Source of the DNA: Gemmatimonadota bacterium
Lineage (GTDB): Bacteria; Gemmatimonadota; Gemmatimonadetes; Longimicrobiales; Gaopeijiaceae
Length of the DNA stretch: 61,871 nt
Reading direction: 5' to 3'
Assembly: GCA_003248075.1 (NCBI GenBank)
Contig: QJYK01000265.1
Span: 1 to 61,871 of the forward strand
The translations under genes and the position numbers were made by a program. Below the pieces are notes generated by a model. The model had not been told where the DNA came from. It was given only the letters and a program-made list of their open reading frames with translations, and did no database searches. Positions 28,406-32,503 of the stretch are shown piece after piece (positions within the stretch are counted from its first letter, which is position 1; the number at the start of each line of letters is the position of its first letter).

Positions 28406-29123
28406 GGGTCGGTACCTGGTCATCGTTCCCACGTACAACGAGCGAGACAACCTTCCCAGGAAGGTCCCCCTGATCCTGGGGCAGGACCCGCGCCTGGACG
28501 TGCTGGTCGTGGATGACGCTTCACCGGATGGAACGGGTGCCCTCGCGGACGAGATGGCGGCCGCCGACGCGCGCGTCCACGTGCTGCACCGCGACTCCAA
28601 GGATGGACTGGGGAAAGCCTATCTCGCGGGCTTCGCCTGGGGGCTCGAGCGTGCCTACGACGTTCTCTTCGAGATGGACGCCGATGTCTCGCACCCGCCC
28701 GCTTCGCTCCCGCTGTTTCTCGAGAAGATCGACGAATACGACGTCGTCATCGGATCCAGATACGTCGGAGGCCGCGTCACGGTCGTGAACTGGCCCATGA
28801 GCCGGCTCCTGGTGAGCTACTTCGGATCCTGGTACGCCCGGACCATCACGCGCATGCCGGTGCGCGATGCCACGGGGGGCTTCAACTGCTGGCGTAGGAA
28901 GGTGTTGGAGACCGTCGGCCTCGAGCGGGTCCGATCCAACGGCTACGCCTTCCAGATCGAGCTCAAGTTCAGGGCGTGGAGGGCAGGGTACCGGCTGGTC
29001 GAGATCCCGATTCTGTTCACCGAGCGCGACAGCGGCGAGTCCAAGATGTCGAAGAAGATCGTGCGGGAGGCCGTGTGGAGGGTCTGGTGGCTGAAGCTCG
29101 GCGCGCTCTTCGGGCGTCTGTGA
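28377..29123 (+). CDS. Polyprenol-phosphate mannose synthase-like GT2 enzyme
   Basis: 248 residues from ATG 28377, with AAGGA five bases upstream; it overlaps the flippase-like gene by 29 bases. It is a soluble-type GT-A domain with IVPTYNERDNLP, VVDDASPDGTG, EMDADVSHPP (DXD motif), VIGSRYVGGR and the C-terminal FTERDSGESKMS typical of dolichol/polyprenol monophosphomannose synthases (DPM1/Ppm1). It lacks the membrane helices of the GT2 at 21689. It would charge polyprenyl phosphate with mannose or a related sugar for use outside by a GT-C enzyme such as the YfhO protein upstream. Confidence 0.88.
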   Translation: MQNRRRPLSEGRYLVIVPTYNERDNLPRKVPLILGQDPRLDVLVVDDASPDGTGALADEMAAADARVHVLHRDSKDGLGKAYLAGFAWGLERAYDVLFEMDADVSHPPASLPLFLEKIDEYDVVIGSRYVGGRVTVVNWPMSRLLVSYFGSWYARTITRMPVRDATGGFNCWRRKVLETVGLERVRSNGYAFQIELKFRAWRAGYRLVEIPILFTERDSGESKMSKKIVREAVWRVWWLKLGALFGRL

Positions 29124-29848: not shown

Positions 29849-30361
29849 ATGGGAGAGGCGGGTTGGGAGATCGAGCGGCGTTTCCTGGTTCGGACCGACG
29901 CCAGGTTGGCCGCGAGCCTCGGAGCCGGCGCGCGCTACACGCAGGGATACGTGAAGGCCGGCGACCCGTCGGTGCGCATCCGCATCGGCGAGGAGCGGGG
30001 GCCGGTGCTCACGCTCAAGCGGGGAAAGGGGATCAAGCGGCGCGAGGTCGAGACCCTCGTGCCTCGCGAGGTCGCCGAAGAGCTCCTCGCCGCCGCCGGC
30101 GACTGGGTGGTTCGGAAGACGCGCTGGCGGGTCGGCCGCTGGGATCTCGATCGCTTCGAGGGCCCGTTGGAGGGTCTCGAGCTCATGGAGGTCGAGCTCG
30201 GGCGGGTCGACGAAGAGCTGCCGGACGCGCCGACGGGGATTTGGATCCTTCGAGAGGTCACCGACGATAAGCGCTTCACCAGCAGTGCTTTAGCTCGCTT
30301 GCAGCCCGACGATCAGGAACGCCTCGTGCGAACGGTTTACCGGGAGCCCGGATCCGAATGA
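29849..30361 (+). CDS. CYTH-domain protein (triphosphate-binding tunnel fold)
   Basis: 170 residues from ATG 29849, right after the methyltransferase stop. The N-terminal EIERRFLV is the signature acidic motif (ExExR/K) that binds divalent metal in CYTH enzymes. Alternating charged strands follow: VRIRIG, LTLKRGKG, REVETLVP, WDLDRF and LELMEVELG. Members hydrolyse tripolyphosphate or thiamine triphosphate or make cAMP; short bacterial single-domain forms like this are mostly inorganic triphosphatases. Exact activity is undetermined. Its stop overlaps rlpA (ATGA). Confidence 0.85.
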   Translation: MGEAGWEIERRFLVRTDARLAASLGAGARYTQGYVKAGDPSVRIRIGEERGPVLTLKRGKGIKRREVETLVPREVAEELLAAAGDWVVRKTRWRVGRWDLDRFEGPLEGLELMEVELGRVDEELPDAPTGIWILREVTDDKRFTSSALARLQPDDQERLVRTVYREPGSE

Positions 30362-30870
30362 GGCGGTCGGCAGCGGTCCTGGCGGCGGTCTTGGTCCTGA
30401 CCGGGTGCGGTGTCTTCGGCTATCCCGGACAGGCGCCAGCTCCAACCGCGGCGCCGTCCGGCACGGCGCCGTCGGCCCCGGCCCGCGAACCTCGCCCGAC
30501 CCGAGGAAACCGACCGGAATACGAGGTATTCGGGGTCCGATACCGGGTCCTCGACAGCGCGGAGGGGTACGACGAGACCGGCGTGGCGTCCTGGTACGGC
30601 GAGGAGTTCCACGGTCGCTCCACCAGCTCCGGCGAGCCGTACGACATGAACGCGATGACGGCTGCACACCGCACGCTTCCGCTCCCGACGTACGTCGAGG
30701 TCACGAACCTGGAAAACGGTCGGGTGATCGTGGTGCGCGTCAACGACCGGGGACCGTTCCACGGAGATCGCCTGATCGACCTGTCGTATGCCGCGGCGCG
30801 TGAGCTGGAGATCGTGGCCAACGGCACGGCACGTGTGCGTGTGCGCGCCCTGAGCCGTGTTTCCGGGTGA
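30358..30870 (+). CDS. rlpA: RlpA-type septal ring lytic transglycosylase lipoprotein
   Basis: 170 residues from an ATG overlapping the CYTH gene stop. The signal peptide ends in a lipobox (LTGC, residues 14-17). A Pro/Ala-rich linker precedes the double-psi beta-barrel: GVASWYGEEFHGRSTSSGE with the conserved Tyr-Gly and His-Gly, then MTAAHRTLPLPTYVEVTNLENG and VRVNDRGPFHGDRLIDLSYAAA containing the catalytic-type Asp. There is no SPOR domain. RlpA cleaves denuded glycan strands during division. It is the last plus-strand gene before the dif-like site. Confidence 0.93.
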   Translation: MRRSAAVLAAVLVLTGCGVFGYPGQAPAPTAAPSGTAPSAPAREPRPTRGNRPEYEVFGVRYRVLDSAEGYDETGVASWYGEEFHGRSTSSGEPYDMNAMTAAHRTLPLPTYVEVTNLENGRVIVVRVNDRGPFHGDRLIDLSYAAARELEIVANGTARVRVRALSRVSG

Positions 30871-30904
30871 AGGCGTGGCCAGGAGGGGGGTTTCGACAAG
30901 CGTA

Positions 30905-30932
30905 ACTTAACATAATACATATTATACGAAGT
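30905..30932 (-). other. dif: dif site: XerC/XerD chromosome dimer resolution site
   Basis: Read on the minus strand the 28 bp divide exactly into an 11-bp XerC half-site ACTTCGTATAA, a 6-bp centre TATGTA and an 11-bp XerD half-site TTATGTTAAGT. The XerD half differs from E. coli dif at one position of eleven and the XerC half keeps the inner CGnATAA. The site is an AT-rich patch in GC-rich DNA, within a 147-bp gap between convergent genes. Genes to the left all point right and most of those to the right point left, which is the arrangement expected at a replication terminus. Not confirmed by genome-wide skew, which cannot be seen here. Confidence 0.85.
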
Positions 30933-31017
30933 TAATGTGGGACCCCCCCGGTGGGACTGGGTAGCGCGCAGAAGACCGGATGATGTCGTGGGAGAGAAGA
31001 TGCCGCGGGAGAAGCGC

Positions 31018-31713
31018 TCAGGTCGTGGCCTGGCGGAGCTCGGCGAGCCGCATCTCGTAGAGGCCACGTTCCGGTGCGTTCTCGCCCAGCTCGGCGAGGA
31101 TCCGCTCGTAGAGGGCCACCGCTCCGGCGGTGTCGCCCCTCTGGGCCCGGATGCGCGCCGCCGAGGCCAGCGCATCCCGAACCTGGAAGTCCAGGTCGGA
31201 GCGATCCGCGATGCGCATGTAGGTGGCGATGGCGTCGTCCCAACGCCCTTCCTGCTCGTAGGCGGCCCCCAGCAGCGAAGCCGCCTGGAGCTCGAGGGGC
31301 TCCCGGGGCGACGCGGCCATCGGCTCGAGGACGGCCAGGGCCTGCTGCGACTCCCCGGCGGCGAGGTAGAGCTCCCCGAGGAGCATCCTGGCCTCGCCGG
31401 CGTACGGGGTCCCGCCGAACCGCTCCAGGAAGACCGCCAGCTGGCTCTTGGCGCCCTCCGGGTCCCCGAGAGCCACGCTCTGGTGGATCGACTCGAGCTC
31501 GTTGGAGGCCTGCTGGATCATCGAGTCCCGGAAGTTCCTGTAGTACAGCCAGGCGCCCACCGCGAGCACGATCGCGACACCCAGCGCCGTCAGGAGCTGT
31601 TGGTTCCGACGACCCCAGTTGGCGATCTCCAGGATCTTGGCGATGAAGACGTCGTCTTCGTGCTCCTCGTGCTCTTGGGTCAGCCTGCGCTGACCCGGAT
31701 GGCGCTTCGACAT
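31018..31713 (-). CDS. YfgM-like membrane-anchored TPR protein
   Basis: 231 residues from ATG 31713; a TTG at 31770 would add 19 residues but is less likely. A charged N-terminus (residues 1-40) precedes one transmembrane helix (about 43-60, ALGVAIVLAVGAWLYY), then TPR-type repeats (AKSQLAVFLERFGGTPYAGEA, ARMLLGELYLAAGESQQALAVL, AIATYMRIADRSDL). This matches the YfgM/DUF2133 family, which tethers periplasmic chaperone function to the Sec translocon in proteobacteria. It has its own predicted promoter at 31771-31799. Confidence 0.75.
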   Translation of the reverse strand: MSKRHPGQRRLTQEHEEHEDDVFIAKILEIANWGRRNQQLLTALGVAIVLAVGAWLYYRNFRDSMIQQASNELESIHQSVALGDPEGAKSQLAVFLERFGGTPYAGEARMLLGELYLAAGESQQALAVLEPMAASPREPLELQAASLLGAAYEQEGRWDDAIATYMRIADRSDLDFQVRDALASAARIRAQRGDTAGAVALYERILAELGENAPERGLYEMRLAELRQATT

Positions 31714-31770
31714 CGACGCGGATCCAGCCCGGAGTGTGAGGGTGTTGCGGGGTACGGAATCGAGCCTCAA

Positions 31771-31799: not shown

Positions 31800-32503
31800 C
31801 GTGGTGGGGGCGCGGCCAGAGGATCGATCTCGGGCGGATGGTACCCGGCCCGGGACCAGAGCCCCGTCGGACGTGCGAGCACCAGACGCCCCGCGGGATC
31901 GGCCTGAAGGACACCCTCGTACAGCCAGTCGTTCAGGAGGGTCGTGACGGTCGCGCGGTGCGCGCCCGCAAGGTCCGCCAGTACCTGGTGCGTGAGGCGC
32001 TCGCCTAGGCGAATGCCGCGGCCCACGGGCTCTCCGCACCGCTCCCCGAGGTCGAGCAGAACCTCCGCGAGGCGCTGGGCGGCGCTCGGCCCGCGCGACC
32101 CGCCCTGAGCATGCCGCAAGCGGTGCAGCTCGCGCTCCACCCCCTCGAGGTACGCGTCGAGGCTCCGACGCGCCGTCTTGAGCCCGCTCAGGAAGCGACC
32201 CGCCGGCAGCGGGTGGACCAGACACCGCGACCCCGCGACCGCCCCGTACCGCCGGTGCCCCTCCGTTAGGGCCTCGTCTCCGAACACCTCGGACGGCAGG
32301 GCCACCCCGACCGTGCGCGCGCCCCTGCCCCGTTCCATGCCGGGCAGCACCAGCCGAACGTGCCCCTCGCGCACGAGCCAGACCTCGGGCGCCGGATCAC
32401 CGGCCGAGTACAAGGAGGCACCTTTACGCAGCCGGACCTGGTCCGCCTGCTTGACGAGACGATTCAGCTTCCGGTCGCGCACCGGCTCGAAGCGGAAGGG
32501 CAC
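31796..32503 (-). CDS. Crp/Fnr-family transcription regulator
   Basis: 235 residues from GTG 32503. A cyclic-nucleotide-binding beta-roll covers about 15-120 (GASLYSAGDPAPEVWLVREG, GVALPSEVFGDEAL), then a long dimer helix and a winged helix with LTHQVLADLAGAHRATVTTLLNDW, the typical recognition helix of Crp/Fnr. The usual cAMP-contacting RxS pair is not obvious, so the ligand is unknown. No Cys cluster for an Fe-S centre is seen. The gene shares a strand with, and lies four bases after, the MFS gene, which it may control. Confidence 0.88.
   Translation of the reverse strand: MPFRFEPVRDRKLNRLVKQADQVRLRKGASLYSAGDPAPEVWLVREGHVRLVLPGMERGRGARTVGVALPSEVFGDEALTEGHRRYGAVAGSRCLVHPLPAGRFLSGLKTARRSLDAYLEGVERELHRLRHAQGGSRGPSAAQRLAEVLLDLGERCGEPVGRGIRLGERLTHQVLADLAGAHRATVTTLLNDWLYEGVLQADPAGRLVLARPTGLWSRAGYHPPEIDPLAAPPPR

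Follow-up and report, generated by a model that had tools for sequence, protein, structure and literature searches.

In this Gemmatimonadota genome, the chromosomal dif site is almost certainly the 28-bp block at positions 30905-30932 of the analysed window. The window is a complete contig (C224, 61,871 bp) from a 5.64-Mb draft assembly of 344 contigs, and the site anchors the replication terminus on this otherwise unanchored contig. Read directly on the minus strand from 30932 to 30905, the block consists of ACTTCGTATAA, TATGTA and TTATGTTAAGT, with the coordinates and letters reported in an earlier sequence-only reading, and its GC content is 21%, versus ~68% in the surrounding region. The same reading had assigned the 11-6-11 layout of XerC/XerD dif sites, which is borne out by comparison of the arms and by 28 conserved columns among relatives, and had counted ten of eleven positions shared between the XerD half and E. 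coli dif, a figure that is reproduced here. Profile score, single copy and conservation agree in confirming the identity of the block as dif, and reading the bare sequence sufficed to find it correctly. The site, its parts and the elements around it are as follows:

30905-30932, minus strand: dif site, 28 bp, 11-6-11 (sequence, shuffles, profile score)
30922-30932, minus strand: predicted XerC-binding arm ACTTCGTATAA (column conservation in 113 sites; arm assigned by analogy with E. coli dif)
30916-30921, minus strand: central region TATGTA, 6 bp, putative region of strand exchange (variable columns 13-16 in 113 sites; role by analogy with E. coli)
30905-30915, minus strand: predicted XerD-binding arm TTATGTTAAGT (10 of 11 positions shared with E. 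coli dif; TTATGT almost unchanged across 113 sites)
30358-30870, plus strand: convergent neighbour, DPBB_1 / RlpA-like (Pfam PF03330, E 3.8e-27)
31018-31770, minus strand: convergent neighbour, TPR protein, stop at 31018 (Pfam PF09976, E 3.8e-14)
28981-28988, plus strand: closest KOPS-type word (GGGNAGGG) beyond the XerD arm, directed at dif (to the left of the site, 5 towards and 0 away)
32323-32330, minus strand: closest KOPS-type word (GGGNAGGG) beyond the XerC arm, directed at dif (to the right of the site, 7 towards and 4 away)

The site lies in the 147-bp intergenic gap separating the DPBB/RlpA-like gene on the plus strand from the TPR gene on the minus strand, in accordance with the placement between convergent genes that had been read from the sequence. 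The accompanying claim of a flip in gene orientation stands in part: a crude GC3 gene call gives ~23 plus- and 3 minus-strand genes on the left and ~8 plus- and 16 minus-strand genes on the right, a switch that is present but not clean (towards the site, 23 of 26 on the left and 16 of 24 on the right). GC skew in the window is +0.027 left of the site and -0.021 right of it, and the cumulative maximum falls at 31,997, 1.1 kb from the site. The distance from dnaA to dif and the whole-genome skew are unmeasurable in this genome because it is a 344-contig draft; both were assessed in three single-contig relatives (G005, G023 and G026), with skew sampled in 20-kb stretches. In these relatives, dif lies roughly opposite dnaA, the two being separated by 44.2% (G005), 50.1% (G023) and 51.3% (G026) of the genome, and the skew across dif passes from +0.023 to -0.069 in G023, from +0.015 to -0.053 in G026 and from -0.007 to -0.040 in G005. 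The switch is inexact in G005, where skew is slightly negative already ~150 kb ahead of dif, and skew in G026 is weak and irregular away from dif. The expected skew extremum is thus matched by the peak in the window and by a drop at dif in all three relatives. The claim that the block marks the replication terminus holds for the terminus region, as indicated by skew, but the meeting of the forks at dif itself is doubted by Kono et al. (PMC3025954), who place dif close to the skew switch yet argue that replication ends at other positions.

At ≤3 mismatches, the core has one match in the draft genome, and the second, better dif that had been named beforehand as a possible objection does not appear among core matches at this threshold. 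The genome encodes three tyrosine recombinase family proteins, which score as XerC, XerD and integron-integrase-like, respectively. XerD reaches 346.9 bits, over its NCBIfam cut-off, and the XerC candidate, whose gene is located between trmFO and hslV, reaches 316.9, slightly short of the 335 that NCBIfam sets for XerC, with XerC still its best equivalog. In addition, an FtsK with a gamma domain is encoded (FtsK_gamma, E 2.3e-24). The third recombinase, at L033:760-2028 (contig C27 of G000), is integron-integrase-like (TIGR02249, below cut-off) and carries ~140 additional N-terminal residues. Its resemblance to integron integrases, together with the use of dif-like sites by integrated elements, could be taken to favour an attachment site that resembles dif and belongs to an integrated element, such as a dif-using phage or a plasmid-type Xer module, in place of chromosomal dif. 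However, this reading is very improbable, since an insertion would normally leave two sites where the genome has a single core match, the skew changes sign at the site, and the Pfam matches found in 15 of the 20 neighbouring reading frames scanned all belong to ordinary chromosomal families, none of them a phage family.

Words of the form GGGNAGGG, the E. coli KOPS word, are oriented predominantly towards the chromosomal dif. The window holds 12 towards and 4 away (left 5/0, right 7/4), and the 113 sites of relatives have 120 towards and 8 away (XerC side 43/5, XerD side 77/3), counts that are not independent because many of the sites come from close relatives. Near 30 phylum-wide sites, the corresponding counts are 8 to 0 and 10 to 1. 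At the 113 sites, words pointing towards dif are crowded into the first 100 bp past the XerD arm, with 21 of 77 there versus 4 of 43 on the XerC side. The plain KOPS word outperformed strand-biased octamers in the window; these octamers, learned from the three single-contig relatives, show no clear switch at the window dif and only a weak cumulative maximum 3.5 kb off.

Nearly all circular bacterial chromosomes can be expected to carry a dif site. In E. coli, XerC and XerD occupy the arms, FtsK is guided by polarised words and activates XerD through its gamma domain, and chromosome dimers are resolved. By analogy, we infer that the 28 bp are bound and recombined by XerC and XerD under FtsK control. 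XerC would bind ACTTCGTATAA and XerD would bind TTATGTTAAGT, as their E. coli counterparts suggest. When sister chromosomes have become joined as a dimer through an odd number of crossovers, septal FtsK would pump DNA towards dif along polarised GGGNAGGG-type words, and its gamma domain, if it acts as in E. coli, would activate XerD. XerD first and then XerC would exchange strands across the 6-bp centre, in the order known from E. coli, yielding two monomers ahead of cell division. Reviews and structural work on the XerCD/dif mechanism include PMC5357621 and PMC5052618.

Conservation had been proposed as a check on the site, and the block proved to be conserved through the order and the class, while its flanks are not. 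A strict core pattern, screened in the first 59 relatives with the reversed pattern as control, has exactly one match in 32 of the 59 and none in the reversed control; the remaining 27 relatives were missed because the pattern was too strict. A less stringent core finds a match in 137 of the 154 genomes from the order, with scattered background matches in some genera and matches of the reversed control in some genomes too. A phylum-wide search found matches in 59 of 61 genomes, including the most distant family, in which controls match about as often as the pattern, so that its matches carry no weight. Alignment of 113 sites reveals 28 conserved columns, in which YATAA and TTATGT are nearly invariant and the central columns 13-16 are variable. 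Most flanking columns hold no more than ~0.1 bit; the strongest departures are at the base directly following the XerD arm (0.5 bit, predominantly T) and at positions -4 and -1 (0.2-0.3 bit). In G001, the second member of the same genus as the window genome, the only core match, L150, is degenerate in its XerC half (AGTAATACTTATATGTATTATGTCAACG); either this match is something other than dif or, perhaps, the G001 genome, which is 89% complete, lacks the real site.

An outer inverted repeat brackets dif in the window, formed by a G-run at 30885-30890 (plus strand) and a C-run at 30943-30949 (window 30885-30957), and two GTGGGAC words lie nearby at 30937 and 30951; neither the bracket nor these words were seen in the flanks of relatives. 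The block, an imperfect palindrome with a flanking G-run and C-run between convergent stops, could also be read as a transcription terminator or a regulatory palindrome. However, the block folds no better than its shuffles (z -0.72), and a terminator would not require 28 bp to be conserved across genomes while the flanks differ, making this reading extremely improbable. Scans of the intergenic stretch found no terminator-like sites and no promoters; the block may end transcription as a side effect.

The assignment as dif is also reflected in how distinct the block is from its surroundings. A position weight matrix built on 96 distinct 28-mers from other genomes, with the window's own site excluded, gives the site 56.8 bits, within the range of the training sites (median 50.3), a comparison that favours the window site because the training sites were chosen by a core pattern modelled on it. 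No place in the window outside the block scores above -16.5, and the gap between 56.8 and -16.5 is independent of that bias. Read on the opposite strand, 30905-30932 scores 27.9 with the same profile, as expected because dif is a near-palindrome. The 9-mer TTATGTTAA at ≤1 mismatch has a chance expectation of just 0.19 per window. AT-rich intergenic DNA is common, but the probability that the block is a chance AT-rich stretch is practically nil given the gap in profile score and the 0 matches at ≤3 mismatches in 100 dinucleotide shuffles; conservation across the class had already refuted it.

Beside the dif sites of relatives, a word [TC]GTGG[AG][AGT]A[AG] resembles, on the opposite strand, the DnaA box of E. 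coli, TTATCCACA. The word was first noticed in a set with eight sites of families f2/f3, and 30 sites of other class families (mostly f4 and f5), obtained later, provide a fresh test. In f2/f3, 22 of 28 sites have it no more than 60 bp from dif, at a density of 9.8 per kb near dif versus 0.14 per kb far from it, and the copies after the XerD arm include 17 at exactly +15 bp, 3 at +16 bp and 8 at +5 or +6. The later sites have the word in 23 of 30 cases, including 20 copies that stand +15 or +16 and 5 that stand +5 or +6 past the XerD arm, and a density of 7.5 per kb near versus 0.17 far. Across L024-L031 and L169-L188 (f2/f3) and L241-L270 (f4, f5), the word stands 5-16 bp past the XerD arm, often as a 10-bp-spaced pair, and is ~40-70x denser than in the far flanks. 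The window's family, f1, has it at only 16 of 95 sites; there, 12 copies lie 9-11 bp before the XerC arm. These XerC-side copies read TTTTCCACA, TTATCCACA or TTCTCCACA (L007, L014, L015, L018, L139-L142, L145, L147, L200 and L201). No DnaA-box-like word is present at the window's own dif.

Clusters of the same word occur just upstream of dnaA in many genomes, and the variable letters of the dif-side boxes may track those of the dnaA-upstream boxes of each genome, a correspondence that is only suggestive. Nine of 15 genomes have a single copy each of the tandem form GTGGRNAANNGTGGRNAA, and the other 6 have none; six of the nine copies lie beside dif, two lie 17-19 kb from dnaA (G174:C2:295056 and G183:C154:18419), and one is on an unplaced contig. 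The dnaA-near pair in G174 and G183 perhaps marks the true oriC. This pattern suits a DnaA-type box without proving one, since another protein could bind it. We propose, with somewhat less than even credence, that dif in this class is more than a bare 28-bp site: in families other than the window's, most sites would have one or two DnaA-box-like words beyond the XerD arm at fixed, helically phased spacings (15-16 and 5-6 bp), placing DnaA, or a protein of like specificity, beside XerD, where it could link replication state with dimer resolution. The window's family would mostly have lost the element or have an XerC-side version of it, the window's own site having none. No description of DnaA boxes beside dif was found in the titles, abstracts and term counts of open-licence papers. 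Should the initiator indeed bind at the dimer-resolution site, the beginning of the chromosome cycle would be tied to its end in a new and testable way. The flank element merits separate study.

The dif site itself is ordinary, a dif having already been predicted in this phylum by Kono et al. 2011 (PMC3025954). That study reported dif sites for 641 organisms from 16 phyla, among them the one Gemmatimonadetes genome of its set, whose site belongs to the same phylum as ours and was predicted by a hidden Markov model; its set does not contain the present genome, and the word "flanking" is absent from the paper (PMC3025954). Compared with B. subtilis dif, the site matches at 9/11 positions in the XerC arm, 5/6 in the centre and 9/11 in the XerD arm. 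The 25-bp sequence ACTTCGTATAATATGTATTATGTNA is found exactly in the Lactobacillaceae Lacticaseibacillus kribbianus and Companilactobacillus versmoldensis, and a Gemmatimonadetes MAG (JAQBQD010000052.1) has the same 25-bp sequence; the B. subtilis and Lactobacillaceae sites differ in belonging to another phylum and in having other flanks. A likeness to loxP is also apparent: TTAACTTCGTATA, on the XerC side within 30905-30935 (minus strand), matches 12/13 positions of the arm of phage P1 loxP, whereas the other arm matches at 9/13 and the spacer differs. This likeness is probably a coincidence of dif-type arms. Relative to E. coli dif, the XerD arm matches at 10/11 positions, the centre at 4/6 and the XerC arm at only 7/11, and the two systems share a 28-bp site of 11-6-11 layout, present in single copy at the terminus, with GGGNAGGG polarity around it and XerC, XerD and FtsK-gamma.
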